Source: Saprospiraceae bacterium
Lineage (GTDB): Bacteria; Bacteroidota; Bacteroidia; Chitinophagales; Saprospiraceae
Reading direction: 5' to 3'
Assembly (NCBI GenBank): GCA_013214355.1
Contig: JABSSL010000005.1
Location: 105,934 to 169,879 of the forward strand
DNA length: 63,946 nucleotides
Shown here: positions 1,401 to 19,251 of the stretch, piece by piece
Numbering within the stretch: position 1 is the first letter of the stretch
How the letters are laid out: the number at the start of each line of letters is the position of its first letter
The notes under the pieces: model-generated
The model's input: only the letters and a program-made list of their open reading frames with translations
What the model was told of the DNA's origin: nothing
Databases searched by the model: none
Program-made: the position numbers and the translations under genes

Positions 1401-4288
1401 ATGCGGACTGTCCTTCCTATCTTTTTCAGATGGCAACTACTATTTCTATTAATCATTGGTCCTACTTTCCTCTTTGCCCAAGACGCTAAACCTAACGTTG
1501 TTTTCATTTTGGCAGATGACTTGGGCTATGGAGATCTTGCTAGCTATGGGCACAGACATATCCAAACCCCACACTTAGATCAGCTGGCTAAAGAAGGACT
1601 AAAGCTTACTAATTTCTATAGTCCCTCCCCGCTCTGCTCGCCCGCTCGTGCCAGTTTCCTCACCGGAAGAACCCCTTATCGGACAGGTATAAAAAGTTGG
1701 ATTCCGGAAGGTACGGATATCTATCTCCAGCAGCAGGAGTTGACCCTAGCTACGCTTTTGAAACGACACAATTATCAAACCTTCCTATCAGGCAAATGGC
1801 ATCTAAATGGTGGATTAGACGACAGCCAGCAAACGCAGCCGGAGGATCATGGCTTCGATAAATGGCTGGCCCTACACGCCTTCGCTACCCCTAATCATAA
1901 GAACCCCAATAATTTTTTCGAAGACGGAAAAGCCCTTGGACAAACACAAGGCTTTGCCGCACAAATAGCGGTGGACAAAGCAATTGAATACCTTGAGGGT
2001 AGAGATACGGACAAACCTTTCTTCTTGTTCTTACCCCTGGCTGAACCCCATTCCGAGATCGCAAGCCCGGATGAATTCTACCAGCAATACCAATCCTTCA
2101 CAGATGGGGAAGTTGATTTAGAACATGTCACAGCAAGAGGACCTGGTGAGTACTATGCCAATATCACCCACATGGATTACCAAATTGGGAGAGTCCTGGA
2201 AAAACTCGAAGAGTTACAATTAGATGAAAATACCATCGTGGTCTTTACCAGCGACAATGGTCCCGTTACTTCGGACTGGCGCCAATGGTGGGAAGTAAAT
2301 ATGTACGGAGAGACTGGCGGATTGCGGGGCCGAAAAGGCGATTTGTTTGAAGGTGGGCTGAAGGTTCCCTGCCTAATCCGATATCCAAATCATATTGCTC
2401 CTGGGATTGTTTCTGACGAACCTGCTCACGGTTATGATCTATTCCCTACGCTCTGTGAGCAACTAAATATTCCTTTACCCGATGATCGGCAAATTGATGG
2501 CATAGATATATCCCCACTCTTCCAGCAACAAAAATTGGAACGCTCTGTACCTCTGTTCTGGGCCTTCCAAACCGCGCTAGGGAACAAAGGAGACATTTTT
2601 CAGTATGCTGTGAGATGGAATAAATGGAAGATGATCGCTTCGGAATCCTTACGCAAAACACTTCTATATGACCTGGAGAACGACCCCTCCGAAACCCGAG
2701 AAATTAGTACACAATTTCCGCAAGTTGTTTCCAAACTCAAGACTTTCATTGAAGAAAAGAAAAACAGTATCGCCAAAGATAAACTTCGTCCCCTGGCTCT
2801 AGAGGAAAAAGAACAGGAAGTAACCATTTTGTATACCAATGACATCGAAAGCGTTTACGATCCTATCGATGCCTATTGGAATGATACTATACAGCGCATC
2901 GGCGGCATGGCTCAATTGGCCCACCTGATCAACGAAACTCGCGCGCAGGAAAAGCTCTCTTTCCTATTTGATGCTGGCGATATCTTTACTGGAGCACTAT
3001 CCAAAGCCACCTCTGGTCAACTCCCATTTGATATCTACAGCGCCATGGGCTATGATGGTTTAAACCTGGGGAATCATGAGTTTGAATACGGCTGGGAAAA
3101 GCTACTGGAAAGCAAGCAGCGTGCCCGTTTTCCCGTTCTCAATGCCAATATTTTTTATAAAGGGACTGACATCAATTATGGACAATCTTATACCATACTG
3201 GAAAAAGAAGGTGTGCGAATTGGGGTGATTGGCTGCATGGGCATAGAGGCCTTTAAATACACCATCAACCCTATCCATGTGAAAGACCTGGAGGTCAGGG
3301 ACCCTACCCCAATTGTACAAAAATGGGTCGATCATTTACGGCCAGAAGTGGACCTGATCGTTGTCTTAACTCATCAGAACAAGTCAGCTCCCATGCAGTC
3401 GGATAAGGAAGTAGATCCCACTGCTCAAAGAGGTTTTGACGAAGACTATGCCATGGCCGGAGCCCTCAAAGGGGTAGATGTCATCCTAGGAGGGCATTCG
3501 GACAATGGTCTTTGGGAGCCCGTCCGTCATCCGAAGACAGGAACATTAATCGGCATTACCTTCGGACAGGGTAAATATCTAGGTTACATGAAGTTATCGT
3601 TCAATCGGAGCTCGAAAAAAGTAGATCTTATCAACGGAAAACTCATCCCAGTCATAGCAGACCATATTCCGCCTGCCCCCCAATCAAGAGACTCATTGAG
3701 GCTTCTAGAGCGAGCAACCCTCAACTCACCACAGTCATCGGCACTAATCACAGAACTGGATTCCGAAAGTACAATGCGGAATCTAACCTCGGCAATTTCA
3801 TGGCCGACGCGATCAAGGAAGGAGCCAAATCCGATATCGGCATGATCAACCCAGGTAGCATTCGTGCAGATCTTGATATTGGTGAAATCACAGTTGAGGA
3901 GATCGTAAACATCTACCCCTTCATTGACAAGACCGTAACCGTGGAAATTGATGGTAAGGCCTTGTTCGAACTCTTGGAATATTCTGCAAGTCTGACTTAT
4001 GGCCTTGTACAATTCTCAGGTCTAGAAATCGAATACGATTTTCGGAAAGCGGTGGGTCAACGGCTTGTTGCTGCCACAGTTAATGGCAAGGATATCAAAG
4101 AAACGAACAAATACACTGTCTCTTGTAGCTCCTTTGTAGCTGGTGGTGGGGATGGCTTCAGTATGCTAAAAAATGGGAAGGTCATTGCGCGAAGTGAGAC
4201 TAAACAAATCGACTATTTACTGGACTATATTAAGCAAAGAAAAAACATCTACCTGCCAGAGATTGGTCGCCAAACAATCCATAAATAG
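1401..4288 (+). pseudogene. Sulfatase fused to 5'-nucleotidase/metallophosphatase, interrupted by a -1 frameshift near 3715-3725
   Basis: The ATG at 1401 is preferred over the in-frame TTG at 1347 because it starts a clean signal peptide (MRTVLPIFF...LFAQ). Residues about 30-440 form a type I sulfatase: metal-binding DD in ILADDLGYGD and formylglycine motif CSPAR with Cys79. From about residue 475 a calcineurin-like 5'-nucleotidase begins (TNDIES at 479-484, DAGD, GNHE at 557-560, THQNK, GGHSDNG). The 5'-nucleotidase C-terminal domain (GNFMADAIKEGA, NPGSIRADL, CSSFVAGGGDGF) continues only in the -1 frame, ending at 4288. Adding one base near the CCC at 3718-3720 would restore a protein of about 962 residues. 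The first metal motif is D-x-E, not the usual D-x-H. It could be a pseudogene or a sequence error. The fusion itself lies in one frame and is secure. Confidence 0.85.
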
Positions 4289-4527
4289 GCGTGATTCTAG
4301 TGCACATTTCGATCTATACCGAGCGGCGGACCCAGCGTCGATTTCTTTATGACTTCCTAGATGACAAAATGACCAGTTTGGTCAAAAAATCATGATCTAG
4401 ATCCTAAATATTTTGTTAGAGCTAATAGTAAATGGATAGCAGGGATAGCACTTTTCAAATTGAGTACTGCTTCTCTCTGCTTGGCAAAACAATACATACC
4501 GAAAGATCAACTAAAGTATCTAGATTA

Positions 4528-6039
4528 ATGAGCCAAACTTTAATTCGTCTATCTCATCAATTATTAGCCATAAGCCTCATCCTAGGCTTTGTAGGAACAC
4601 ATCATCAACTGCTAGGCCAGAAATCCTGGACCAAAAGAATACCCGGTGTCGGCACCTTCTCTTCTCCGCGAGTAACTGACCTTAACGGGGATGGGACAGA
4701 CGATATTATTCTTGGTGCCGGTCGGCTGGAATTTGAGCCCTGCGATTCTTCGGTGATGGCTCTAGATGGCAAAACGGGCGAGCTGCTATGGAACGTTTCA
4801 GCCAAAGACCAAATCTTTGGATCAGCTACTTTCTTGGATATTACAGAGGATGATATTGCTGACATCTTCATTGGAGGGCGTTCAGCAGAGTTGATGGCGA
4901 TCAATGGCGCTAACGGGGAAGTGGTTTGGCGTTTTTCATCTAAGACTCGTAATAAAAAGGGAAAGAAAATCCAATGGTTCAATTTTTACAATCCTCAATT
5001 TATACCTGATCAGGATGGAGATGGACTGGAAGATATTCTAATTTCTAATGGTGGCGATGTGATGGTTGAAGCCTACGATCCAGATCGCCCTCCTGGATAT
5101 CTACTGGTAATTAGCTCTGCCGATGGAGAGCTTATAGCCCTGGCAGAAATGCCGGACGGTCGAGAAATCTACATGTCGGTATCCGTAACTGCTACCCCAG
5201 ATGGCAAGGATCACGAAATAGTCTTTGGGACCGGTGGCGAGACAGTAGGTGGTAATCTTTACGTTGGTTATTTATCCGATGTGATGAAAGGTGATCTTTC
5301 CGGAGCCAAGTTGTTGGATAGTAGTAAAGATAAAGGCTATATCGGGCCTCCCGTGCGGGTGGACGTAACGGAAGATGGCATTACGGATATATTTACCTGT
5401 TCTGTTGACGGGCGACTATTGGCCTATGATGGGAAAGGGCACGAACTACTATGGGAGGTTAAAGTACCAAATACGGAATGCTACAGCTCCATTGCGGTGG
5501 GACAGTTCACTGCTGATAGTATTCCCGATTTCTTCCTCACTTTTGCTCGTGGTGTCTGGCCTAAACTAGAATGGAACTGGCAACATATGATCAATGGACG
5601 AACAGGGCAAATTGAATTTACGGATTCTCTAGGCTATTACCAGATGACCAGTCCAGTGGTGCTTGATTATGACAATGATGGGAAAGATGAAGTTTTGTTG
5701 AGCGTCAACATCCAGGAAATCCGAGAAGGTTATCTTAAGTTCTTCTACAACATGTTAGTGGTTGCTGACTTCCAAACGGGTCAGTGGCTTATGTTTGGAG
5801 ATACTTTTGAAGGAAACAACCTTTCCTCAACCCCGTGGATTGGAGACCTGGATCAAGACGGTCGCTTAGACATCCTATATTGTCATGGCGATAATCTCCG
5901 CCAAACCTATACCTTTGATGGCATTATGATCAGGCGTATCGCCACCCAATTTAGACTACAAAAGCCCATTCTTTGGGGTGCCTATCAGGGTAGTAATTAC
6001 AATGGCATTTATCGATCAGACGGTCCTATGCAAAATTAG
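4528..6039 (+). CDS. Secreted FG-GAP/PQQ-like beta-propeller protein
   Basis: The ATG at 4528 is chosen over the ATG at 4432 because it opens a signal peptide (MSQTLIRLSHQLLAISLIL...LLGQ); the 32 codons before it look like noncoding leader. The mature protein of about 470 residues has repeated calcium-binding loops of the D-x-D/N-x-D-G type, such as DLNGDGTDDIILG, DQDGDGLEDILIS, DYDNDGKDEVLLS and DLDQDGRLDILY. PQQ-like blade sequences lie between them (MALDGKTGELLWNVSA, LMAINGANGEVVWRFS, LLAYDGKGHELLWEVK). These predict an exported seven- or eight-bladed propeller that binds ligand or protein. No catalytic residues can be named. It follows the sulfatase fusion on the same strand and ends 23 bases from a convergent UnbV gene. 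Confidence 0.75.
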   Translation: MSQTLIRLSHQLLAISLILGFVGTHHQLLGQKSWTKRIPGVGTFSSPRVTDLNGDGTDDIILGAGRLEFEPCDSSVMALDGKTGELLWNVSAKDQIFGSATFLDITEDDIADIFIGGRSAELMAINGANGEVVWRFSSKTRNKKGKKIQWFNFYNPQFIPDQDGDGLEDILISNGGDVMVEAYDPDRPPGYLLVISSADGELIALAEMPDGREIYMSVSVTATPDGKDHEIVFGTGGETVGGNLYVGYLSDVMKGDLSGAKLLDSSKDKGYIGPPVRVDVTEDGITDIFTCSVDGRLLAYDGKGHELLWEVKVPNTECYSSIAVGQFTADSIPDFFLTFARGVWPKLEWNWQHMINGRTGQIEFTDSLGYYQMTSPVVLDYDNDGKDEVLLSVNIQEIREGYLKFFYNMLVVADFQTGQWLMFGDTFEGNNLSSTPWIGDLDQDGRLDILYCHGDNLRQTYTFDGIMIRRIATQFRLQKPILWGAYQGSNYNGIYRSDGPMQN

Positions 6040-6062
6040 GAGGTTCCAGAATCCAACAAAAT

Positions 6063-9000
6063 TCAGTACTCCAGAATCACCACCTTTTCATTATTTGAAG
6101 TCACTATTACTACTGGTTTACCACTACTAGTTTTGGTCCTCTCCATTTTTTTCACGTCATAGGGTAAATACAGGCCACTTGTGGCTGGAGAGATAGGCTG
6201 GAAATTACCTTTCCCGTCACCTTTCAACAAAAGGCCAACACTCGCATCATTCCGAGGTGTTTCTACCTCAGATACAAACAAGTTACCTGCTAGCAATAGG
6301 TCGCGTTTACCATCTCGGTCAAAATCTTCGGCCATAATCGCATTGACGGAGGACAATTGAGCTTCATTCGGTAGTGCACATACGCGAAACTGTCCATTCC
6401 CCAGATTCTCCAAGTAGGAGCTGGCAAAAGTTGCCGCATGGTAGTGAAGTGATTTATCTAAAGCTTTAGGACCATAAACCGTTTCTAATTCAGCATCTGC
6501 AAATAGGTCGTAGGTGGGAAACTTGTCTTGCAGCATGGGCACTTGCTCCGCAGAGCAAGACCGGCCACGTAGTGGATATTTTTTACCGTAGTTGTAATAA
6601 CTAAGGACTATATCGCTTGTGCCATTTTCATCAAAGTCATGGTAATAGACTTCAAATGGTTCTTCCTTACTTGCCTTATATTTATAGTTTAGTCCAAGGT
6701 TACCAGCAATGAGATCCTCATCTCCATCCCCATCCATATCTTCTGCCGTAATGCTAAACCACCAGCCTTCCGTACCTGCTAATCCGGCCGCTGTAGATTC
6801 GATTTTCTTGAAGTTTAGTTGAGTGGTCTGCTTAAAGATCGTGATCGGCATCCATTCCCCTACCATGACAAGATCATCCTTACCATCCTTGTCATAATCC
6901 ATCCACAAGGCATCTGTCACCATTCCTAATTCAATCAATGCAGGGGCCCGCTCGGAAGTTACATCTTTAAAAACTCCACCTTCATTTTCTAAAAGTCGGC
7001 TAGTGGTGGGAGAAGGATATTGCCAGGGCAGGTGTCTCCCTCCAACGAATAGATCGAGGTCACCGTCCTTGTCAAAGTCATGGGGTCGTACGCAAGCACC
7101 ACTTTCTAAGAGTGGCGGCAAAACGCCCTCTTTCCGGATCATAACCCCAGTACCATTATTTTCATAAAGACGGTCCATGTACAATTCCGAGTTAGCCGGA
7201 TGCCCATTACCTCCAGAAACCACGTACAAATCTTGGTCGCCATCCCCATCGTAGTCAAAAAAAGTGGCATCTATATCTTCGTATGCAGCATCAACTGCAA
7301 AGGCGTTTAGTCGTATTCCTCGATATCCATTCTCTCTTTGCAGAAACAAACGGGCAGGAAACCCTGCTGCACCACCTACAAAAACATCTTCCCGTCCATC
7401 ATTATTCACATCTCCCACCGCCATGGCGGGACCGAATTGTGACATTTTATGCGGCAACAGCACCTGCTTTTCGAAATCGTCAAATGTATTTTCCCGATGC
7501 TGATAATCAATGCCAATCTGATCCGTTATTTCCCGAAATACGGTGGCTGCTTCTGCTTCTTTCGCACTTACTGATTTCCCTGCCTCTGCATAATCCACCG
7601 TCAGCAGTTGATTTGTAGCCACATTTTGGAGCCTTGTCTCTTGGCCATCCCACCAAGTAATAGTTATCGACTGGACTTTTTCGGAAGAACCCACCCCAAA
7701 ATGAGCGATTTGTTCAGAAGTAGAATACATGCCTCTAATATTGGTGAAGTCATACCATTGACAACGGTCCTCCTCTAAGCAAATCTTGACCCGTACACCA
7801 AAAGAAGATCGATTTCCTACTTTATCTGTTACGTTTATTCTCAGATAGTTCTTTCCAGTTTTTTTGTCAGAATGGTTTTGATAAAGGAAGGCTCTTTCGT
7901 TTATATTATTGACGGCTAAGTCCAAATCGCCATCCCCATCGAAATCAGCATAGGCGGAACCATTTGAAAAGGTTTCTTTTTTAAAACCCCATTCATCAAT
8001 CACCTTACTAAAGGTAAGATCTCCATTGTTCTTGTAGGCATAGTTATGTAAAGGTACCGAGGGAATTATTTTAAGTATCTCTTTCAAGTCTAGGATGTCC
8101 CAAATACTCACATCCCCCGCATTGGGATTTGCCCTAATGAACTCGTTGACGACTTGTTGGACATACTTGGCCGTATTCTTGTCCGAATCGGTATTACGGA
8201 TATCCCTCAACAATCCATTCGTGATAAAGAGGTCCTTCCAACCATCGTTATCAAGGTCAGTGATCAGGTTGGACCAACTCCAATCGGTACTTGAAACGCC
8301 AGCCATTTGAGCAATATCACTAAGCGCTAAGGATTTATTGGCACTTTCCCCCTGGTTGAGCTGCAGAACATTGAACATGTATTGGTAGTGACCTCCGTCG
8401 TTGAATACTTTCCAAAAGGCTTGCGGATCCATACCACTCATATTCGACTTGATTCGAAAATTATCCTCTGCCTGCATATCCAATACCATGAGGTCATTCC
8501 AGCCGTCATTATTAATGTCGCCAGCATCAACTCCCATACTGAAGAAAGAGATGTGGCGTGCCACCGAATCAATGCTATTAGTAAAGGTTCCGTCGCCGTT
8601 ATTGAGGAAAAGCCAGTCAGGTTTGGCAAAATCATTGGCTACGTACAGATCTGTCCAGCCATCGTTGTTAAAATCAACAGCACTGGCGCTATTGGGATAG
8701 CCGTTGCGCAGGATACCTGTTTCCACCGATACATCTACAAACTTACCGGCCCCATCATTTCGATAAAGTCGTGAAGCAAATTCCTCCAAATTCTCATCCA
8801 CCCCCAAATAATCTGAATAATTCCCAGCGTTTGGTGGGTGATTCAGTAGATAGAGGTCCAGCCAACCATCTTTATCATAATCAAAAAATACGGCATGACG
8901 CGTACGAGCCTCTGAGTCTATTCCATACTCAGCCGCCATTTCCCGGAATGTTCCATCACCCTGATTTATATACAGCTCATTCTTGCGAAGTTCGGGTCGA

Positions 9001-9401
9001 TCATCATATAGTTCCTTACTTACATAAATATCTTCCCAGCCGTCGTTATTGATATCCGCTACCGTGACACCAGAGGACCAACCTCCTCGATCGGCAATAC
9101 CCGCTTGCTTAGTCACGTCCTCGAACTTAAAATCACCCTTGTTATAATACAAGCGATCAGCAACCAGATTGCCCGCAAAATATATATCCGGTCTTCCGTC
9201 CCGATTAAAATCCCCTACTCCAACACCCGCTCCTCCATAATAATTGGAGTAAATCAGGATATTATGCTCTTTTGCATCAACGACTTCGTTCTTAAATTCG
9301 ATACCGGTATCCTTCGATTTCAATAAAGTGAAAAGTGCGCTCTGAGCCCACACCATGGATATTCCAAGTAAACAACTCACAAAAATTAATACTCTTTTCA
9401 T
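6063..9401 (-). CDS. Large secreted FG-GAP/VCBS and ASPIC/UnbV protein (CRTAC1-like), paralogue 1
   Basis: The 1112-residue product has signal peptide MKRVLIFVSCLLGISMVWAQ. An N-terminal set of FG-GAP loops spans about 60-510 (DFNRDGRPDIYFAGN, DINNDGWEDIYVS, DYDKDGWLDLYLL, DFNNDGWTDLYVANDF). An ASPIC/UnbV domain follows at about 525-605 (ending with ITITWWDGQ and TNQLLTVDY), and a second propeller occupies about 630-1110 (DVNNDGREDVFVGG, DYDGDGDQDLYVVSGG, DKDGDLDLFVGG, MDGDGDEDLIAGN). Family members are exported calcium-binding beta-propellers; some databases label them RNA-binding without good evidence. It is the last gene of the SusC-SusD-UnbV-UnbV cluster, 89 bases after its paralogue. Glycan or protein capture at the surface is inference. 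No sorting domain is visible at the C-terminus. Confidence 0.85.
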   Translation of the reverse strand: MKRVLIFVSCLLGISMVWAQSALFTLLKSKDTGIEFKNEVVDAKEHNILIYSNYYGGAGVGVGDFNRDGRPDIYFAGNLVADRLYYNKGDFKFEDVTKQAGIADRGGWSSGVTVADINNDGWEDIYVSKELYDDRPELRKNELYINQGDGTFREMAAEYGIDSEARTRHAVFFDYDKDGWLDLYLLNHPPNAGNYSDYLGVDENLEEFASRLYRNDGAGKFVDVSVETGILRNGYPNSASAVDFNNDGWTDLYVANDFAKPDWLFLNNGDGTFTNSIDSVARHISFFSMGVDAGDINNDGWNDLMVLDMQAEDNFRIKSNMSGMDPQAFWKVFNDGGHYQYMFNVLQLNQGESANKSLALSDIAQMAGVSSTDWSWSNLITDLDNDGWKDLFITNGLLRDIRNTDSDKNTAKYVQQVVNEFIRANPNAGDVSIWDILDLKEILKIIPSVPLHNYAYKNNGDLTFSKVIDEWGFKKETFSNGSAYADFDGDGDLDLAVNNINERAFLYQNHSDKKTGKNYLRINVTDKVGNRSSFGVRVKICLEEDRCQWYDFTNIRGMYSTSEQIAHFGVGSSEKVQSITITWWDGQETRLQNVATNQLLTVDYAEAGKSVSAKEAEAATVFREITDQIGIDYQHRENTFDDFEKQVLLPHKMSQFGPAMAVGDVNNDGREDVFVGGAAGFPARLFLQRENGYRGIRLNAFAVDAAYEDIDATFFDYDGDGDQDLYVVSGGNGHPANSELYMDRLYENNGTGVMIRKEGVLPPLLESGACVRPHDFDKDGDLDLFVGGRHLPWQYPSPTTSRLLENEGGVFKDVTSERAPALIELGMVTDALWMDYDKDGKDDLVMVGEWMPITIFKQTTQLNFKKIESTAAGLAGTEGWWFSITAEDMDGDGDEDLIAGNLGLNYKYKASKEEPFEVYYHDFDENGTSDIVLSYYNYGKKYPLRGRSCSAEQVPMLQDKFPTYDLFADAELETVYGPKALDKSLHYHAATFASSYLENLGNGQFRVCALPNEAQLSSVNAIMAEDFDRDGKRDLLLAGNLFVSEVETPRNDASVGLLLKGDGKGNFQPISPATSGLYLPYDVKKMERTKTSSGKPVVIVTSNNEKVVILEY

Positions 9402-9490
9402 CCTATGTGCCGAATTGCTTTTAAAAATAGAGGGATTTGAGGTTTAGGTCAGGAGCGAATTAACGGCATGACTATGGTCACACTACTTAT

Positions 9491-12400
9491 TTACCTTACC
9501 TGAATCATTCTAAGCCTCTCATTATTAGGAGCGACCAAAATCCTTTTGCCTTTCTCCGTGTTGATCCATTGCATCCGCTTTACATCATAAGGCAAATACA
9601 AACCACTTTCGTGGGCCGGTATCGCCGAAAAGGCACCTTTACCATTCCCCAATAGTAAAGCCCCTACCCCAGCATCATTCCTTGGGGTTTCTACTTCGGA
9701 AGCAAATAGGTTACCAGCCGTAATTGCATCCAAATGACCATCCCCATTAAAGTCATCAAGCAGGAAGCTATTGATTGCAGAAAATTGGGCTTCGATTGGC
9801 AGCGCGTGTACCTCAAAGCGTCCATTACCCAGGTTTTCAATGTAGGAGGAGGCAAAATCAGTCACCTTATAGTTGAGCGATTTCTCTAGGGATGATTCAC
9901 CGTAGATCTCAGATAAATTGGCTTGTCCAAAAAGGTCATAAGTTGGAAACCTATCCTTAATGAAGGGCATTTGCTCAGCCGAACACTGGCGCCCTCGTAC
10001 AGGATATAGCTCATTTTCCTCAAAATATCCTAGAACAATATCGAGGCTTCCATTCTCGTCAAAGTCGTTCAGATATACCTCAAAGGGCTCCGCCGCCGAT
10101 GCTTTGTATTTGTAGTTGAGTCCCAAGTTCCCAACCAAAAAATCTTGATCACCATCTCCATCCATATCAGCCGACTCGATGCTGAACCACCAGCCAACTT
10201 TGTCTTCTAGACCTGTGTCTTCAGCCAGTGTGAATTGACTGCCTGTATTTTCCAGAATGGTTATGGGCATCCATTCACCAGTCAAAACCAAATCCATATC
10301 TTGATCCTGATCATAATCACACCAAACCGCATCGGTGATCATACCGATTTCCTTTAAGGCCGGAGCTAGTTCATGCGTAACATCCTCAAAAGTGCCGTCT
10401 CCCCGATTCCTCAGGAGATCGCTATTCGCGGGCTTAGGATATGATCGCGGCTGCATCCGCCCCCCTACAAAAAGATCTAGGTTACCGTCACCATCAAAAT
10501 CAAAAGGTCGGACGACGCCTCCACTGGTAAAACAATTGGGCAAAGCGCCTTCTTTATAGCTAAAACCACCTTGACCATCATTTAAGTAAAGTCGGTCAGC
10601 ATACTCCTGTGCTCCGGCAGCAAACTCATTCCCACCACTGACTACATACAAATCTTGATCACCATCCTGATCAGCATCGAAAAAGATAGCGTCGATATCT
10701 TCATTGGCCAGGTGTGCAGCAAATGTATCTTCCTGCTTCTTTTTGAGGGAACCATCACTCTTTTGCACGTATAATTGGCCGGGAAGGCCAGCCGCACCTC
10801 CCAGAAAAAAATCTGTAAGCCCATCACCATTAACATCAGTCGTTGCCAAAGCTGGGCCCCAGTTTGACATCTTATGCGGCAGCAGAACTTCGTGATCAAA
10901 GTCGTCGAATTCATTTTCGACGTGCTTAGCATCCAGCGCTATGTCCGTTGTAATATCCGTAAAAAGATATTGCTGTTCCCGCGCTTTGGAGACTGGCTGC
11001 GTAGCTTTATCATAGGATAGTACAAGGAGTTGATTAGCTGTAATCTTAGTTTCCACGGTTACTTTCCCATCAGGCCAGGTGACCTCGATGGAGTCTATTA
11101 GCGAATGATTAGCCAATCCTACACTAATAATTGGATCCACTGAGGATTGGAAGCCACGAGTCAAATGTGCCTCATAATACTGCACAAGCTCGCCCGCTTT
11201 GACTTTCACCTTGGCACCAATTCCTAAGCTGTTTTTATTAGAACCCAGTAGTTTGAGGCGTATGTAATTCGTCTTTTCCTGCTCTATGGTGTTGTTCCGA
11301 AAAAGGTAGGCAGGTTCATCAATATTATTAATAACAAGATCTAGATCACCATCATTATCTAGATCTCCATAGGCAGCCCCATTGGAAAAAGCTTTGTGAT
11401 CAAAGTTCCAGGCCTCATTCATTTTTGAAAACGTATAGTTCCCATTATTACGAAAAACGTAATTCTCTATTTTAGTAATGGGGGCAGCCTCCAGCAAGGA
11501 CCTGAATAACTCGGCATTTGTAATTTCACCCGTCTTAAAAGCTTTGATCTTTTTCTTTTCAAAGGATAGGTAATCTTTATTGGAAATATCCTTCTTATAA
11601 CCGTTTGTGATGACTAGGTCTTTGTTGCCATCCAGGTCTAAATCCACAAAGAGTGGAGCCCAGCTCCAGTCGGTATTAGAAACACCGGCGAGCTTGGAGA
11701 TATTACTAAAATGTCCATTTCCCCGATTTAGCTGCAGGGCATTATGCATGTACTGGTAGTGAAAACCGTCCTGAACAGCATAGTAAAATATAGAACGGTC
11801 CATCGGTCTCATGGTGGTTTTTTGACGATAATTGTCTTCCGCCACCATATCTACAGAGATGATATCTGTCCAGCCGTCATTATTAAAATCAGCCATATCG
11901 GTTCCCATCGAGAACTGGGATATTTGAGGGAAAGCCTCCTTTACCACATCACGGAAACTACCATCTCCATTGTTGAGATAGCAATAGTCGTGTTCGATGA
12001 AGTCATTGGAAACGTAGATATCTGGCCAACCATCATTATTGATATCGCCAATGGAAACACCTAAACCATAGCCTAATGGGTTGGTATAAAATCCCGCAAT
12101 TAGGCTAGCATCACGGTAAGTCCCATTATCATTTCGATAGAGTTTATCCCCTACGTTAGAATCATAAGCGCTACGCACCTCACTGGGCTTAAAATCATTG
12201 ATCGGCTGGGTATTATGATTTAGAATGAACAAATCAAGATCACCATCACGATCGTAATCAAAAAAAGCGGCTTGCGTCGCATAACCAGTATCCGCAATAC
12301 CGTATTCAGCAGCGCGTTCAGAAAAGGTACCATCTTGATTATTGACAAATAATTGATTGGCGCGATATTCAGTCGGTAAGTTACCAGAGAGACACACGTA

Positions 12401-12775
12401 GATATCCAACCAACCGTCATTGTTGATATCAACCATCGTTACTCCCGTGTTCCAGCCTCGGGTACCAGCCGTACCTGATGATTCTGTGATATCCTCGAAT
12501 TGAAAATTTCCTTTGTTTAAGAAAAGTCGATTAGGAACAAGATTACCGGTCAGGTAAACATCCGCCAAGCCATCATTATTGATATCACCAATGGCTACTC
12601 CCCCACCATTGTGAAAGTACTCATAGGTAATGATATTAATCTTTTCGTTTTCAATGATTTTGTTGTTAAACGTTATATGGGGTTTGGAGGAAGGAAGTTT
12701 AGTAAAAAGGGAGGATTGCGCCTGGACGGTCAACACCCCAAGCAAGGCAATCAAAAAGTGCAGTAGTCGGTTCAT
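9491..12775 (-). CDS. Large secreted FG-GAP/VCBS and ASPIC/UnbV protein (CRTAC1-like), paralogue 2
   Basis: The start is taken as the ATG at 12775, which gives signal peptide MNRLLHFLIALLGVLTVQAQ; an in-frame ATG at 12784 would only add MDV. The architecture matches the neighbouring paralogue: an N-terminal FG-GAP propeller (DINNDGLADVYLTGN, DINNDGWLDIYV, DYDRDGDLDLFIL, DINNDGWPDIYVSNDF), a UnbV domain near 510-590 (IGAKVKVKAGELVQYYEA, IDSIEVTWPDGK), and a second propeller (DVNGDGLTDFFLGG, DADQDGDQDLYVVSGG, DFDGDGNLDLFVGG). The two genes are clearly related but diverged, so the duplication is not recent. It starts 216 bases after the SusD gene, with a strong hairpin at 12877-12914 in the gap. 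The role is presumably at the cell surface with SusCD; the substrate is unknown. Confidence 0.85.
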   Translation of the reverse strand: MNRLLHFLIALLGVLTVQAQSSLFTKLPSSKPHITFNNKIIENEKINIITYEYFHNGGGVAIGDINNDGLADVYLTGNLVPNRLFLNKGNFQFEDITESSGTAGTRGWNTGVTMVDINNDGWLDIYVCLSGNLPTEYRANQLFVNNQDGTFSERAAEYGIADTGYATQAAFFDYDRDGDLDLFILNHNTQPINDFKPSEVRSAYDSNVGDKLYRNDNGTYRDASLIAGFYTNPLGYGLGVSIGDINNDGWPDIYVSNDFIEHDYCYLNNGDGSFRDVVKEAFPQISQFSMGTDMADFNNDGWTDIISVDMVAEDNYRQKTTMRPMDRSIFYYAVQDGFHYQYMHNALQLNRGNGHFSNISKLAGVSNTDWSWAPLFVDLDLDGNKDLVITNGYKKDISNKDYLSFEKKKIKAFKTGEITNAELFRSLLEAAPITKIENYVFRNNGNYTFSKMNEAWNFDHKAFSNGAAYGDLDNDGDLDLVINNIDEPAYLFRNNTIEQEKTNYIRLKLLGSNKNSLGIGAKVKVKAGELVQYYEAHLTRGFQSSVDPIISVGLANHSLIDSIEVTWPDGKVTVETKITANQLLVLSYDKATQPVSKAREQQYLFTDITTDIALDAKHVENEFDDFDHEVLLPHKMSNWGPALATTDVNGDGLTDFFLGGAAGLPGQLYVQKSDGSLKKKQEDTFAAHLANEDIDAIFFDADQDGDQDLYVVSGGNEFAAGAQEYADRLYLNDGQGGFSYKEGALPNCFTSGGVVRPFDFDGDGNLDLFVGGRMQPRSYPKPANSDLLRNRGDGTFEDVTHELAPALKEIGMITDAVWCDYDQDQDMDLVLTGEWMPITILENTGSQFTLAEDTGLEDKVGWWFSIESADMDGDGDQDFLVGNLGLNYKYKASAAEPFEVYLNDFDENGSLDIVLGYFEENELYPVRGRQCSAEQMPFIKDRFPTYDLFGQANLSEIYGESSLEKSLNYKVTDFASSYIENLGNGRFEVHALPIEAQFSAINSFLLDDFNGDGHLDAITAGNLFASEVETPRNDAGVGALLLGNGKGAFSAIPAHESGLYLPYDVKRMQWINTEKGKRILVAPNNERLRMIQVR

Positions 12776-12876
12776 AACATCCATATCAGGTCTATTTGGA
12801 AAGTATTGCTACTAAATGTAACACCACTAATCACAGTTTGGGATATTTTTCGGTCTTCTTCCTGTCAAATAATTAC

Positions 12877-12914
12877 AGATGCGGACTTTCACCGTTCTAG
12901 GAAAGTCCGCATCT
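12877..12914 (-). terminator. Perfect 14-bp hairpin downstream of the SusD gene
   Basis: The arms AGATGCGGACTTTC and GAAAGTCCGCATCT pair perfectly around a 10-base loop. The hairpin lies 77 bases past the SusD stop and about 100 bases before the next UnbV start. On the minus strand the stem is followed by GTAATTATTTG, a weak U tract. It may therefore be a partial terminator or an mRNA 3'-end stabiliser that sets SusCD expression above UnbV. Confidence 0.6.
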
Positions 12915-12991
12915 ACTTGAAAATACTTGGTTCTTGAGAGGCCTAGTCAAGATTCCCGACTATAATCCCCTATCTGAACCTCCGGTATAGC

Positions 12992-14518
12992 TTACTGGTC
13001 CCACCAAACGCGTGAGGTATAGGTATCTCCATTAGGTAGCTTGCTCACGGCATTGTCATAATTGGCAGGATTCAATAGAGGCTCATCATTACTGTAAGTT
13101 AAACGGCGAGGAATAGTTCCTCCAGTATCACCCAGGTTCTGTCCTGGATCCAGTACGGGATACCCCGTACGGCGCCACTCAGAAAAGGCCTCATCTTCCT
13201 GATCAAGTGCAAAGGCTTGCCACTTCTCAACCATGATTTGCTCCAGTTTTTCATCAAAGGAACCGGTCAGTGTACCATTAGCAGTTACGTAATCGTCAAT
13301 GTCCTGCTGGGTAATGCCAAAATTGAGAAAATCTCCACGGGAGAGCGCCGCACGAATCCCTTCTTCAAAGAAAGTCTGGGCATCAGCTTCTGTTCCTCCC
13401 CAGCCCCTGAGAGCTGCTTCAGCCTTAGCAAAGGATACTTCGGCATAACTCATGGAAGTTTGCCCACGCGTGGTCGTAGGACCAGCAAATAGTACTCCAT
13501 TCGGACGAGAATAAAAGTCCAGATTAGCATTAACATCGGCGTACTGTGCATCTGAAAGGGCTGGCGATACACCTCGATATTCTAAATCCCCACCAGCAGC
13601 CACAGAGCGAGGCGTTGGTGCTGCTATAATCGGTAAACGAGGATCATTTTTATCGATCATCGTTTGGATAAAAGCTTCCCCTAAGAAAGGGGCATCGGCC
13701 GGAGACCGTATGAGCAATTCCGCAGCACGGTGCATATCGCTAAATACAGTACCACTATTTTCCGTAGGCAAAACAGCATCGTCGTCATTGCTAGATGGCA
13801 AAAGTCCGCTATTCATCACTGCCGTAGCTTGAGCCTGGGCCGTACCTGGGTCAACCTTACTTAAGCGCAAGGCAATGCGAAGTCTCAAGGCATTACCAAA
13901 TTTGATCCACTTTTCAGGATCACCCTGAAAAAATAGGTCAGCTGAACCAAAGAAAGCTCCATCGTTCGGGTCTAGACTATTGACAGCATCCTCTAATCGT
14001 TGAGCTAGGTCCGCATAGATCTGTTGTTGTGCATCATAAGACGGAGTAAGATCTGCTCCTCCTTGTAATGCTCCGAAATAAGGAACATCTCCGACCATAT
14101 CTGTCAAACAAATCCAATTAAGGATCTCCATAATCTCGAAGATCGCAATCTTCTGGGTGGCAATGTTGGGTGCGTCCTGGGCTTCTGCTAGTTCTTTCCC
14201 TTTACGCGCATTGTTCATATTACCATACATATTGTTCCAGAAGTCATCATTGTAATTTAGGATATCTTGGTAGTGCGCTGTAGTAAAACCTTGGTTGTGG
14301 TTCCCGTAGTGCTGAATCCATGCCCCCCACTGGAGGATTTGATTGGTCCAAGAGTTACCCTTCTCGCGAACTGAACGGTACTGCACATGAGAAAGGGAGA
14401 ACTCTGAGGGAACAGCCGCTGGACGAGTAGGCGGGGTGTTGATCTCCTCGAAATCACCCGTACAGGCCGGAAATATCAAGAAAGTTAAGAGAATATATTG
14501 CAAAAATTTATTTCTCAT
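12992..14518 (-). CDS. SusD/RagB-like outer-membrane lipoprotein
   Basis: The 508-residue protein has a lipoprotein signal (MRNKFLQYILLTFLIFPAC, lipid-carrying Cys19), then a helical TPR-like core typical of the SusD-like 2 group. It has NQILQWGAWIQHYGNHNQG near the N-terminus, WICLTDMVGDVPYFGALQGG in the middle, and KLEQIMVEKWQAFALDQEDE near the C-terminus. SusD proteins sit as lids on SusC transporters and capture oligosaccharides or peptides. It begins 38 bases after the SusC stop, so the two are almost certainly one transcript. The ligand cannot be predicted from sequence. Confidence 0.93.
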   Translation of the reverse strand: MRNKFLQYILLTFLIFPACTGDFEEINTPPTRPAAVPSEFSLSHVQYRSVREKGNSWTNQILQWGAWIQHYGNHNQGFTTAHYQDILNYNDDFWNNMYGNMNNARKGKELAEAQDAPNIATQKIAIFEIMEILNWICLTDMVGDVPYFGALQGGADLTPSYDAQQQIYADLAQRLEDAVNSLDPNDGAFFGSADLFFQGDPEKWIKFGNALRLRIALRLSKVDPGTAQAQATAVMNSGLLPSSNDDDAVLPTENSGTVFSDMHRAAELLIRSPADAPFLGEAFIQTMIDKNDPRLPIIAAPTPRSVAAGGDLEYRGVSPALSDAQYADVNANLDFYSRPNGVLFAGPTTTRGQTSMSYAEVSFAKAEAALRGWGGTEADAQTFFEEGIRAALSRGDFLNFGITQQDIDDYVTANGTLTGSFDEKLEQIMVEKWQAFALDQEDEAFSEWRRTGYPVLDPGQNLGDTGGTIPRRLTYSNDEPLLNPANYDNAVSKLPNGDTYTSRVWWDQ

Positions 14519-14556
14519 TGTCGTTTTGTTTTAAGCATAAAATTTAAGAAGGCTTT

Positions 14557-17500
14557 CTAGAAACCAATATTCAAATCAAACCCAAAGGTTCTGGCTATTG
14601 GGAAAGAGTTGTTCTCGATCCCCAATCCTACACCTGAACCACCACCGGCTGTATTACGGTTAAAGATGTAAGCGTCAGGAGCTACGCCTGGAACATTATT
14701 CTGTAGATAGCCAAGATTTCTGCCTACCAATGAGAGTCGAAGCGAACGAATCGGCAATTTATCTACTACTGATTTCGGGAACGTATAGCCTAGCACTATC
14801 TCTCGAATAGCCACGTAGCTACCATCGTATACAAACTCCTCCGTAATCGCCTGTGTAGACCCAGGAACAGCATTTAGCCAGTACTCTTGGGCAGTTACCG
14901 CAGTAGTATTCTGCTGACCAGTGGGCACCCAAGAACCATCTGCATCTTGGTTAGCTACAATACCTTCTGCCACAAGGCCGCCCTCACGGAAATCCTCTGT
15001 CCAAGCTCCTGTACCGTACAAGGTCATATACATATTACTTTGGCTGTAGATATCAGCCCCTTGGCTGATGTCCAAGAGGATGCTGAGGCTAAGATTCCGG
15101 TAAGAGAATGAGTTGCGCAGGCCACCAGTCCAGTCTGGCAATGCATTTCCTACTAGTCTTCGACCCGATTGTCTGATTGGCAATCCTGTACTTGCATCAA
15201 TCAATCGATTTCCATCGTCGTCGCGCAAATAGAAGTTACGGGAATAGATGTTACCAAACAGATCACCCACATCGGCGAACACATCAGCATTACGATCTGC
15301 TGCCCCTGTTCTCAAACGTTCGATATCATCGGTAAGCGCAACCACCTCTGAGACATTTCTGGCAAAGTTAAATGACACTTCCCAATTCAGTCCTCTTGCG
15401 GAGCGCAGTGGTGAGCCTGTTATCAAGAACTCAAAACCACGGTTGTCAATCTGACCAGCGTTAATCAGTTGGGTTCCAAATCCTGAAGCCCTGGAAACGG
15501 CTGCACTGAGGATCTGATTTTCAGTAGCTGCATTGTAGTAAGTCGCATCCAAGCTCAAACGTCCTTTGAAGAAACTAGCCTCCAAACCGAATTCAATTGA
15601 TTCCGTTAACTCATTCTGAAGGTCCTCAAAGGGAATTCGGTTCGTGAATGAGGCAGTCGTAAAGCTTCGGAAGGCACCTAAGCCATAAGTACCAAAAATC
15701 TGGTACGGATTACCAGAGTTACCCGCTTGTGCCCAAGATCCTCTGATTTTCAAGAAAGAGAAAGACTGAGGCAGATCGAGTACCTCAGACAGCACGGCAC
15801 TTACACTGACCGAAGGATAGAAAAACGACCAGTTGTCTGGACTAAGGGTAGAAGACCAGTCATTCCGCGCCGTCCAGTCTATATAGTAGGCGTTCTTATA
15901 AGAGAACTGCCCAAAGGCATACAAAGAGTTGATTCTCGAATTATTAAGACCAAAATTACTATTCCGGGAAGGTCTGATGGTGTTGTTTACCACTGGCAAA
16001 CCTGGGAAATTGAAGGTATTACCACTGAATCCTACTCGGCGGATTTCCAATTCCTGCGCATTACCTCCAAAGCTTAAAGAGAAGCCCAAGTCATCAGTGA
16101 TATTTCGGTTGGCAGTTAGAAGGAAATCTGCATTGGTCTCACGTACGCGGTTCACGCGTTCACCAACGCTACCTACAGGTTGTACCCGAGTACCTACTTC
16201 CTGCCATTCTAGGATCTGATCCGTGTATGAATCATTACCGATACGAGCACTCAATGAAAGCCAATCAGTAATATCATAGGTCAACTTGGCAAAACTGATG
16301 GTACGATCCCGTGTATCCTCATTACGAGTATTGTTAACTGACCAGTATGGATTACCCGTAAAGGTACCACTCGACCAATGTCGCTCGTAACCAGGCGTCA
16401 AAGCACCACCAGACAAGCCGACTAATTGATCCAATTCGTCAGCAGTAATAGCGAATTTCTCAATGGAAGAAAGTGGAACATCACGCGGGATGTAGCGGAG
16501 TGCGTACATCACATTCTGCTGCTCATCAGCTAGGTTAGGGCGGTTGAAGGATTCCTGCCGGACATAGGTCAACTTTGCGTCCAGTGTAAATTTCTCAGAT
16601 AATTTAGCACCAACACGTAGTGTACCATTGTAGCGTTTCAAAGTATTGGTGGGCAACATACCCTGGTTGTCCATGAAAGTACCCGTTAGGGCATAATTCA
16701 AAGCATCTGTACCTCCTCTAACACTCAGCGTGTTAGTCCAGGTTTGCTGGTTTTGTAGAAAGTCCCTAGCATTATCTGGCTGAGGAGAAAAAGTACGTAA
16801 ATTACCAAATACATCATAGTATTGTTGACCATCCATACGTGGTCCCCAAGATGGAGGTCCCTCTGGTGCGCCACCAGTAGGTGCGGGAAAACCTTGCGGA
16901 GTACCACTAGTAGATCCATCATTAGCTACGATAGAGCCATCCGCTTGACGAAAATGGGTAAATTCGCCGTTAAGTCCCTGACCATAAGTGTTTTGGAATT
17001 CAGGAAAAATAGCCGGAGTACCTACTGTGAAGTTACTAGAGAAATTCACTTCTGTACGTCCTACTCCAGCACCGGTCTTGGTGTTGATAAGAATAACACC
17101 ATTCGCACCACGCTGACCATAAAGTGCTGCTGCATTAGGACCTTTAAGAACAGATACCGATTCAATATCATCCGGATTGATATTAGAAATACCGTCTCCG
17201 AAATCACGACCACCCCAAGCACCTGCCGAACCAAGAACATTGTTGTCAATCACAACACCATCCACTACGTAAAGGGGTTGGTTGTTGCCGGTTAAGGAAG
17301 CGTTACCTCGAATAATAACCCGGGTAGATCCACCAGGTCCCGAGGCTCCCTGGTTGATATTCACCCCCGCTACGCGTCCCTGCAGGGCGTTCAAAGCATT
17401 GGTTTCCCTTGCTACATTGATATCATCGCCGCTCACCTCAGTAACCGAATACCCTAGGGCCTTTTTTTCGCGACTTACCCCCAAGGCTGTAACGACTACC

Positions 17501-17808
17501 TCATCCAATTGTGCAATGCTTTCTTCTAGCACCACATCTATGACATTGGAGGCAGTAAGGGTTATTTCCTTTTCGGTAAAACCGGTATATCGGAATATCA
17601 ATACGTTGAGTCCCTCCGGTACGTCAAGTGAATAATTACCGTCAATATCAGTCACCGTACCGGTGCCAGTACTTTTTATCAAGACGGTTGCACCTACTAA
17701 TGCTTCACCGTCCGATGCAGTGACGGTACCTCTTATTTGTCTTTGTCCGAAGGCTGTAAGCCCCATCAACAGACATACAAGTAAGAGTAAGTTGGTTTTC
17801 ATTTTCAT
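14557..17808 (-). CDS. SusC/RagA-family TonB-dependent outer-membrane transporter
   Basis: The start is placed at the ATG at 17808 (or the ATG at 17802), where signal peptide MKTNLLLLVCLLMGLTAFGQ begins; a longer frame upstream is leader sequence. The product of about 1083 residues has a carboxypeptidase-regulatory-like domain (IRGTVTASDGEALVGATV), then a plug with LNALQGRVAGVNI, TRVIIRGNASL and the SusC signature LYVVDGV, then a 22-strand barrel ending in an aromatic residue (FDLNIGF). There is no STN domain, so regulation through an anti-sigma factor is unlikely. It is the first gene of the SusCD-UnbV cluster and is preceded by a consensus promoter and a long leader. It imports a large ligand using TonB energy; the ligand is unknown. 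Confidence 0.95.
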   Translation of the reverse strand: MKMKTNLLLLVCLLMGLTAFGQRQIRGTVTASDGEALVGATVLIKSTGTGTVTDIDGNYSLDVPEGLNVLIFRYTGFTEKEITLTASNVIDVVLEESIAQLDEVVVTALGVSREKKALGYSVTEVSGDDINVARETNALNALQGRVAGVNINQGASGPGGSTRVIIRGNASLTGNNQPLYVVDGVVIDNNVLGSAGAWGGRDFGDGISNINPDDIESVSVLKGPNAAALYGQRGANGVILINTKTGAGVGRTEVNFSSNFTVGTPAIFPEFQNTYGQGLNGEFTHFRQADGSIVANDGSTSGTPQGFPAPTGGAPEGPPSWGPRMDGQQYYDVFGNLRTFSPQPDNARDFLQNQQTWTNTLSVRGGTDALNYALTGTFMDNQGMLPTNTLKRYNGTLRVGAKLSEKFTLDAKLTYVRQESFNRPNLADEQQNVMYALRYIPRDVPLSSIEKFAITADELDQLVGLSGGALTPGYERHWSSGTFTGNPYWSVNNTRNEDTRDRTISFAKLTYDITDWLSLSARIGNDSYTDQILEWQEVGTRVQPVGSVGERVNRVRETNADFLLTANRNITDDLGFSLSFGGNAQELEIRRVGFSGNTFNFPGLPVVNNTIRPSRNSNFGLNNSRINSLYAFGQFSYKNAYYIDWTARNDWSSTLSPDNWSFFYPSVSVSAVLSEVLDLPQSFSFLKIRGSWAQAGNSGNPYQIFGTYGLGAFRSFTTASFTNRIPFEDLQNELTESIEFGLEASFFKGRLSLDATYYNAATENQILSAAVSRASGFGTQLINAGQIDNRGFEFLITGSPLRSARGLNWEVSFNFARNVSEVVALTDDIERLRTGAADRNADVFADVGDLFGNIYSRNFYLRDDDGNRLIDASTGLPIRQSGRRLVGNALPDWTGGLRNSFSYRNLSLSILLDISQGADIYSQSNMYMTLYGTGAWTEDFREGGLVAEGIVANQDADGSWVPTGQQNTTAVTAQEYWLNAVPGSTQAITEEFVYDGSYVAIREIVLGYTFPKSVVDKLPIRSLRLSLVGRNLGYLQNNVPGVAPDAYIFNRNTAGGGSGVGLGIENNSFPIARTFGFDLNIGF

Positions 17809-18131
17809 AAATAAAAATTTAACAGTGTAGATCTTAAATAAAGTATTGATCACTAATTCTGAAGGAGTTTCTTTTCTGTTTTCATCTGGCAAAACTCTCT
17901 TGATTAGCTATATAAATACACGGCAATGACAGGCATACCGACTGTGATCGATCGCAAATACTGTTAAAATCTTATTGTGAATCAATATTCAGATGATGGT
18001 CCTGAAGCTCTTACATGAGGACACAGAATATTTGTTCCTTGCCTTATAGACATAAGTCCGCAAGGAAAGACTAGTAGCTTTTAAAGGAAATTTTAGTTGG
18101 AAAGCGTTGTTAGCGTGCGTTAATACGCTGC
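17809..18131 (-). other. Long 5' leader of the SusC gene
   Basis: About 320 bases separate the predicted -7 box (18132-18139) from the SusC start. A weak frame continuous with SusC (MPDENRKETPSEL...) exists in the last 84 bases but has no signal-peptide logic. The stretch holds one strong hairpin at 18035-18067 and no other gene I can support. Long leaders of SusC genes are known sites of post-transcriptional control in Bacteroides; that it acts so here is inference. Confidence 0.4.
18035..18067 (-). promoter_or_regulatory. Hairpin inside the SusC leader
   Basis: The outer arms TTCCTTGC and GCAAGGAA pair over 8 bp and the inner arms CTTAT and ATAAG over 5 bp, with a 4-base loop and a 3-base bulge on one side. 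It lies in the transcribed leader of SusC. There is no U tract next to it, so it is not a simple terminator. Confidence 0.4.
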
Positions 18132-18352: not shown

Positions 18353-18384
18353 CCAAAGACTGAGCCACAAATATTCAACGAATA

Positions 18385-19251
18385 ATGATGCATTTACCCA
18401 TTCTAAATTCACCTCCTATAAGATCGTTCCGCGGGTTCTGCGGTAAGTATCTGTCCTTCGTGTTGTTAGTTTTCCCAGTACTTCTTACTGGACAAGAAGG
18501 CTATCAACTATTGACTGACATCCCCTACTATGGTAGCGAGTCCATGGTCAAAGACACCTACCTTAAGGAACGCTGCCAGCTAGATATTTACCATCCTCCT
18601 TCGAATGGTTTTCCGACAATAGTTTGGTTTCACGGTGGTGGGCTGAAGCGTGGGAATAAGCATATACCTGGAGGGCTCAAGGAACAAGGAATAGCGGTAA
18701 TTTCGGTAAACTATCGCTTCTCCCCCAAAGCCAAAGCCCCAGCCTATATCGAAGATGCTGCGGCAGCTATTGCGTGGACTTTCAAGAATATCGCTTCTTA
18801 TGGAGGGGATCCCAATCAGATCTTTATTAGCGGACACTCGGCGGGAGGATACCTCGCCAGCATGGTGGGACTAGATAAACGATGGTTGGCCAAACATGAT
18901 ATTGATGCCAATAGAATTGCAGGTTTACTACCGTTGAGTGGACATACCATTACCCACTTCACGGTACGTGAAGAAATGGGTATTGATGGCAAGCAACCCA
19001 TTATTGATGAATTGGCTCCGCTCTACCATGTTCGGGCAGATGCTCCTCCTCTCCTTTTGATTACCGGCGATCGTGAACTAGAATTGCTAGGTCGATATGA
19101 AGAAAACGCCTACATGATGAGGATGATGAAAATTGCTGGGCACCAAAAAACACGGATCCTAGAATTAGATGGCTATGGTCATAATATGGTTGCTCCTGCT
19201 ATTCCCTTAGTAGTCAAAGAAATCAAGACCCTAATCAAAGAAAATAATTAA
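18385..19251 (+). CDS. Secreted alpha/beta-hydrolase, esterase/lipase type (BD-FAE-like)
   Basis: The 288-residue protein has a signal peptide that cleaves near LLTGQ at 33-37. The alpha/beta-hydrolase elements are complete: oxyanion motif HGGG at 83-86, nucleophile elbow GHSAGG with Ser152, acid Asp229 in TGDRE, and His266 in YGHNM. Such enzymes hydrolyse short acyl esters, including acetyl groups on plant or algal polysaccharides. It is divergent from the SusC operon. Its stop overlaps the convergent pseudouridine synthase stop in a shared TTAA. The substrate is not deducible; glycan de-esterification fits the context. Confidence 0.85.
   Translation: MMHLPILNSPPIRSFRGFCGKYLSFVLLVFPVLLTGQEGYQLLTDIPYYGSESMVKDTYLKERCQLDIYHPPSNGFPTIVWFHGGGLKRGNKHIPGGLKEQGIAVISVNYRFSPKAKAPAYIEDAAAAIAWTFKNIASYGGDPNQIFISGHSAGGYLASMVGLDKRWLAKHDIDANRIAGLLPLSGHTITHFTVREEMGIDGKQPIIDELAPLYHVRADAPPLLLITGDRELELLGRYEENAYMMRMMKIAGHQKTRILELDGYGHNMVAPAIPLVVKEIKTLIKENN

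Follow-up and report, generated by a model that had tools for sequence, protein, structure and literature searches.

The gene and its two halves

The window (the whole stretch of 63,946 nucleotides of Saprospiraceae DNA that was analysed) carries near its left end a gene in which two hydrolases are joined. From the ATG at 1401 to about 3675, one frame encodes a signal peptide, a complete type I sulfatase, a short linker and a metallophosphatase (Table 1), while the open reading frame as listed starts at a TTG at 1347 and ends at 3845. The signal peptide, recognised by eye, is the only export signal of the fusion. A preliminary description of this DNA had proposed that the sulfatase runs in frame into a metallophosphatase bearing TNDIES, GNHE and GGHSDNG, and both domain matches and all three motifs were located as described; the in-frame join, expected at about residue 450-475, lies at about 463-473. 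The domain E-values, together with the same join in other genomes, confirm that the sulfatase-nucleotidase fusion is more than a product of chance. The same description had treated 1401-4288 as one protein, although its mention of a repaired protein hints that the shift of frame had been seen. This holds for the single frame up to about 3675, but the C-terminal nucleotidase domain (PF02872, 2.6e-32) is encoded by a shifted open reading frame at 3800-4288, so that the order PF00149 then PF02872 is present but split over two frames.

Table 1. Coordinates of the features of the fused gene, numbered from the first base of the window
Feature	Position	Strand	Basis or detail
Signal peptide MRTVLPIFFRWQLLFLLIIGPTFLFA	1401..1478	+	Sec type by look; read by eye from the sequence
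Sulfatase domain PF00884	1491..2468	+	Residues 31-356, 5.8e-63; type I, alkaline-phosphatase superfamily
CSPAR formylglycine motif, Cys type	1635..1649	+	Sequence
SGSH_C PF16347, sulfatase C-terminal subdomain	2343..2762	+	Residues 315-454, 1.7e-12
Linker of about 8 residues (465-472) between the domains	2793..2816	+	Sequence comparison with relatives
Metallophosphatase PF00149 (calcineurin-like), UshA/CD73-type 5'-nucleotidase	2826..3500	+	Residues 476-700, 5e-9
TNDIES, motif I of the nucleotidase	2835..2852	+	Alignment
GNHEFE of the nucleotidase	3069..3086	+	Alignment
GGHSDNG of the nucleotidase	3489..3509	+	Alignment
Stretch of six C where the frame changes	3676..3681	+	Sequence
Nucleotidase remainder in the other frame, with PF02872 (matched 3803-4171)	3683..4288	+	Stop 4286-4288

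The frame change

As sequenced, the predicted protein ends at a stop at 3843-3845, and its last ~54 residues are out of register. The part that has fallen out of frame shares 88.1% amino acid identity with the same-genus genome G001 over 201 codons, and the differences are distributed over codon positions 1/2/3 as 14/12/92. This end has evolved as coding DNA, and the frame change is therefore either a sequencing error or recent. A programmed frameshift is not supported, as the frame of another genome of the genus (G002) is continuous past this point and the piece of the G001 gene on contig C80 is also open across it. The frame change is local to the window copy, and intact fused copies exist elsewhere.

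It is also conceivable, but rather unlikely, that the gene of the window strain is truly broken, with translation stopping at 3843-3845 and a product that consists of the sulfatase and a partial nucleotidase. The frame change is indeed present in the assembled sequence; however, it sits at a homopolymer, comparison with G001 shows continued purifying selection on the C-terminal part, and an unread base directly precedes the window.

Fused copies in other genomes

The architecture can be established without the window sequence, since the whole protein lies in one frame of 962 aa in G002, with 77% identity to the window copy over 755 residues; the nucleotidase domains in this frame were seen both by the UshA model and by a profile of these nucleotidases. 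In G001, the fused frame runs to the contig end and the rest is found at the end of another contig. A fourth genome of the genus (G003, 80% complete) gave no match to the nucleotidase at 1e-60. Across the family, the nucleotidase was found at E<=1e-60 in 13 of 398 genomes, being fused in eight and unfused in five (G040, G047, G179, G193 and G230). The fused eight, which belong to three genera, are the window genome with its frame change (G000), G001, G002, G258, G301, G331, G382 and G253.

A wider scan of 84,980 species genomes, which used two short exact peptide patterns followed by confirmation and hence gives lower bounds, yielded 53 confirmed nucleotidase loci. Eight of these are fused, labelled Saprospiraceae (five), Lewinella (one), Bacteroidetes only (one) and, for a metagenome-assembled genome (MAG), Caldithrix abyssi (L067); the window genome is absent from the 53. 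Intact fused copies are found in the window's genus, in two further Saprospiraceae genera and in the one MAG labelled Calditrichota. With 8 of 53 loci fused, the homologues do not always occur as separate proteins, and the earlier claim that the fusion is no readthrough artefact stands; fused open frames in other genomes rule out that readthrough or misassembly joined two genes. The two-part enzyme is real and conserved in some Bacteroidota, with the join intact in relatives of the window strain.

The copy labelled Caldithrix abyssi lies in a stop-to-stop frame of 1031 aa, in which both halves were confirmed by Pfam (PF00149 then PF02872 in one frame). Among 40 Calditrichota genomes searched, this MAG was the only one with a match above 300 bits; a second record labelled Calditrichaeota, from outside those 40, has a solo nucleotidase (L069). 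The 43.6 kb contig of the MAG also bears genes that resemble, by eye, a hydrogenase and a sigma-54 regulator. Transfer or mis-binning may possibly account for the presence of the fusion there.

The sulfatase half

The residues D39, D40, C79, R83, K132, H134, H217, D285, N286 and K312 are invariant in all 11 aligned sulfatases. Apart from the cysteine, we take these to be the metal ligands and the active-site Lys, His and Arg, and all catalytic residues checked are kept. Likewise, the C, P and R of CSPAR are invariant in the 11, in agreement with the maturation motif C/S-x-P/A-x-R. By motif and residues, the N-terminal half is predicted to be an active type I formylglycine sulfatase. The nearest solved relative of the G002 sulfatase is 3ed4, a putative arylsulfatase of E. 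coli (whole-domain match, 379 bits). The two share the CxPxR motif of type I (S1) sulfatases and all metal and substrate residues checked, whereas 3ed4 is a sulfatase alone, of 502 residues, and here the sulfatase forms the N-terminal half of a longer protein.

The window genome (11.2 Mb) has 15 matches to the formylglycine-generating enzyme FGE (PF03781), the best at 275.8 bits, and none to the anSME model TIGR03942. A maturase of the FGE type encoded in this genome probably acts on the fusion sulfatase, and Cys79 would most likely be oxidised to formylglycine in this way. The listed sulfatase matches of the genome number 100, some of which are two pieces of one gene; among 395 phylum-wide genomes (up to four candidates scored per genome), the subfamily of the fused sulfatase was found at 1e-130 in the window genome only. 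In three Vibrionaceae (L154-L156, from G842, G837 and G833), a gene for a radical-SAM protein, anSME-like by eye, lies before each of the sulfatase genes of the wider group.

The nucleotidase half and its active site

Like enzymes of the UshA/CD73 type, the C-terminal half combines PF00149 with PF02872, and the nearest solved relative of the G002 nucleotidase is c4898 of E. coli (3ivd/3ive). The Phe of the PF motif and the aromatic of GGDG[FY] align with CD73, the latter being F or Y in 53 of the 54 rows that bear the position (57 rows in total); both presumably correspond to the base clamp of CD73. Three other positions differ from these relatives. TNDIES has Glu in 53 of 53 subfamily rows with the column and His in all three outgroup rows (DxH to DxE). 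GNHEFE ends in Glu in 53 of 53 rows with the column, where the three outgroup rows have Asp (NHEFD to NHEFE), at a position which we take to be the acid of the catalytic dyad. Similarly, GGHSDNG has Asp in 53 of 53 rows, a count that is partly by construction because the scan used GHSD as one of its two patterns, against His in the three outgroup rows and Asn in CD73 (GHxH to GHxD); the other two motifs lie outside the patterns. The outgroup consists of two E. coli proteins and the nucleotidase of G230, and one further subfamily row is a fragment that lacks the columns.

The set D, D, N, H, H, H is kept with three positions turned acidic throughout, and the canonical two-metal set with its Asp-His dyad is not present as such, if the metal-ligand and dyad roles of the aligned positions are as we assume. 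Because acids replace these three positions, we make no claim of a canonical 5'-nucleotidase; since the three residues are unlike those of the E. coli and human relatives aligned, the 5'-nucleotidase activity of the subfamily may differ from theirs. For the UshA/CD73 enzyme type, the review PMC8475336 describes an Asp-His dyad, two metals and a rotation of the domains. The fused copies also differ from the UshA/CD73 relatives in having no signal peptide of their own on the nucleotidase. Judged from sequence, the nucleotidase subfamily is a distinct one with its own active-site pattern, and its members carry the labels Bacteroidota, Calditrichota, Myxococcota, Acidobacteriota and Gammaproteobacteria, including Vibrionaceae. 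No description of it was found in literature searches. In the window genome, another 5'-nucleotidase C-terminal domain occurs in an open frame of 1802 aa (G000:C212:47464-47988).

When five of the proteins were scanned with NCBIfam models, every model stayed below its cut-off. The G002 protein scored 168.1 bits with the UshA model NF007109, under its cut-off of 600, and 140.3 bits with TIGR04486, the model of the SoxB thiosulfohydrolase, a partial-length match within a common superfamily that is far below the curated cut-off of 550. A C-terminal half that acts on something other than nucleotides, in which DxE, NHEFE and GHxD hold other metals or serve the release of another group, possibly sulfate as in SoxB, would draw on the conservation of the three substitutions in 53 of 53 rows and on this SoxB match, and would imply that sulfate is released by both halves. 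It is nonetheless improbable, as the UshA model scores higher, the base-clamp aromatics are kept and the best fold matches are nucleotidases. No Sox gene was recognised by eye beside the fused copies. The preferred assignment of the C-terminal half is a two-metal phosphohydrolase of the CD73/UshA type, in which a nucleoside 5'-phosphate would sit between the two subdomains and lose its phosphate.

A structure model of the G002 protein built from 31 aligned rows reached a mean pLDDT of 78.9 and a pTM of 0.56 (the single-sequence fold gave a pLDDT of 32.5). The best matches of the modelled nucleotidase half were 3ivd/3ive (TMt 0.86-0.87), of which 3ivd is c4898 with uridine, and the closed form of CD73. 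The sulfatase half matched 3ed4 best, in a loose superposition (TMt 0.73-0.74, rmsd 6.5-11.4), and contains low-confidence stretches that include residues 288-318. None of the 50 matches listed spans both halves, and at this pTM the relative placing of the two halves in the model is unreliable.

Unfused relatives and the origin of the fusion

In unfused Saprospiraceae, the two genes lie side by side, either divergent or in tandem, or else on different contigs. They are divergent in G047 (L031), for example, and in G230 (L059) the nucleotidase is followed in tandem by the sulfatase, with about 60 bases between them; this nucleotidase is of the ordinary TNDIHG type with 35% identity. The nucleotidase of unfused relatives has its own signal peptide, and the ~8-residue linker occupies the same place in fused proteins. 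The fusion probably arose from two separate genes that became one, the nucleotidase losing its signal peptide and being placed after the sulfatase through the short linker; a single signal peptide would then export both activities in equal amounts.

In the nucleotidase tree, the nine fused rows cluster with the unfused L070 and L072, and this group of 11 is supported (SH-aLRT 99). A single clade of fused copies is not rejected with either half (p-AU 0.089 (0.0886) for the nucleotidase with row L096 left out; 0.551 for the sulfatase with 25 rows, without the broken copy L162 and the long branch L141). In genus g38, the nucleotidase (G040) falls within the fused group and the sulfatase with gammaproteobacterial sulfatases. 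This difference in grouping means that the simple split of a fused gene is no explanation for G040, and that the two genes have not always shared one history.

The sulfatase is present at 700 bits or more in 11 of 398 family genomes, all of which have the nucleotidase, eight of them by fusion; at E<=1e-130 it is present in 14, with the nucleotidase in 12 and absent in G233 and G248. For unfused family genomes, the sulfatase occurs at 700 bits or more in three and the nucleotidase in all three, where the Fisher p of 1e-6 is biased by the three sulfatases being in the search model. Among genomes with the nucleotidase and a label other than Saprospiraceae, 29 of 42 have no sulfatase at E<=1e-90 and 13 have it, one of them fused; the 12 unfused carriers include three Vibrionaceae copies used as the outgroup of the sulfatase tree. 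The sulfatase was thus found at 1e-90 in 12 of 41 unfused nucleotidase genomes versus 0 of 144 others in the gammaproteobacterial order of G863, in which neither gene was found at that threshold, figures that are weakened by genome relatedness and by a control from one order, the 41 spanning several phyla.

That the two functions are linked, as the preliminary description had suggested, gains from the fusions, the pairs in G047 and G230 and the unfused co-occurrence, and the genes are partners in some relatives; a fixed partnership does not follow, with 29 of 42 carriers lacking the sulfatase. Nor was a fixed genomic partnership found in E. coli CFT073, where the c4898 cluster comprises three nucleotidases and a Tsx channel with no sulfatase annotated (two stretches were read for annotation, the first of which lay off the cluster). 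In this cluster (L036, 41996-48243; about 4652992-4659245 of CFT073), two of the three metallophosphatase/5'-nucleotidase genes near the Tsx-like nucleoside channel point in the same direction.

The fusion could also be a neutral accident kept by descent, in which two unrelated exported hydrolases use one signal peptide and share no pathway. A single origin that is not rejected, neighbours that vary between genera and the differing histories of the G040 sulfatase and nucleotidase would suit this explanation. It is unlikely all the same, given that the genes stay together in unfused G047 and G230 and that the sulfatase accompanies the unfused nucleotidase in 12 of 41 genomes versus 0 of 144 in the one-order control.

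Gene neighbourhood and the substrate

Conserved neighbours gave no clue to the substrate, as clustering found none common to the different genera of fused copies. A luciferase-like monooxygenase recurs at four loci of genus g95, and a Na/Pi cotransporter is the second gene upstream at L063. In the window, the stretch 4432-17907 holds a SusC/SusD-like pair (by eye) and three genes of the FG-GAP type (one assigned by Pfam, the others by eye) and separates the fusion from an esterase (18364-19248), which in G002 directly follows the fusion; the two loci are otherwise similar, and this stretch has the look of a cassette carried by only one of them. At the left edge, a translated ABC-transporter gene has an unread residue (X, about 15932-15934 of L163) just before base 1. 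In 21 loci among L078-L113 (Vibrionaceae and one Psychromonas), a conserved frame of ~420-590 aa bearing CxxC motifs of zinc-ribbon-like appearance lies just downstream of a solo nucleotidase; as a neighbour it was uninformative about the substrate.

The divergent pair of G047 lies in a cluster that also holds an adenosine deaminase and a NUP protein. This cluster, together with the fusion, the repeated pairing of both enzymes and a NUP-like frame seen by eye about 3 kb from the sulfatase in the gammaproteobacterial G851, would fit a scheme in which a single sulfated nucleotide is attacked first by one site and then by the other. The sulfatase might, for instance, open adenosine 5'-phosphosulfate or another sulfated nucleotide, and the nucleotidase would then take the freed 5'-phosphate and leave a nucleoside for the deaminase and a phosphorylase. 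To our knowledge, however, type I sulfatases act on sulfate esters, and we know of none that acts on phosphosulfate anhydrides. Further, none of the genes flanking the fused copies was recognised as a nucleoside gene, some having been checked by Pfam and the others by eye, and the nucleotidase is often present where this sulfatase is not. A sulfated nucleotide attacked in turn at both sites is an unlikely substrate. That the two sites act on one molecule of whatever kind is a possibility that we hold more readily, although we would not expect it.

The proposed enzyme and its meaning

The reading that we favour, and consider somewhat probable, is an exported scavenging enzyme with two activities, one on a sulfate ester and the other on a nucleoside 5'-phosphate. 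Its role in the cell would most likely be to scavenge sulfate, phosphate and a nucleoside or sugar outside the inner membrane. Several observations tell against this scavenging enzyme: the window copy is frame-shifted, many nucleotidase carriers (29 of the 42 above) lack the sulfatase, G233 and G248 have the sulfatase (1e-130) without the nucleotidase, and the G040 genes group differently. Moreover, the three changed active-site residues may alter the 5'-nucleotidase activity, the three 3ivd-type nucleotidases of CFT073 lie by a Tsx channel with no annotated sulfatase in the two stretches examined, the clustering showed no gene that flanks the fusion in more than one genus, and the modelled sulfatase has low-confidence stretches and superposes loosely on 3ed4.

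Searches of papers, solved structures and NCBIfam models found no entry for the sulfatase-5'-nucleotidase pair. The fusion joins two known kinds of enzyme, with a nucleotidase whose active site is distinct. A bolder proposal, which we regard as very unlikely, is that the exported enzyme dismantles a sulfated nucleotide in two steps with a UshA-like phosphohydrolase of a new class, in which carboxylates alone form the first metal site. If this were true, sulfate, phosphate and nucleoside would be recovered together from a molecule that is not yet known as a nutrient. For the window genome with its ~100 sulfatases, the fusion points to which of them works with which phosphatase. It links the release of sulfate with that of phosphate, and makes the substrate testable with one protein.
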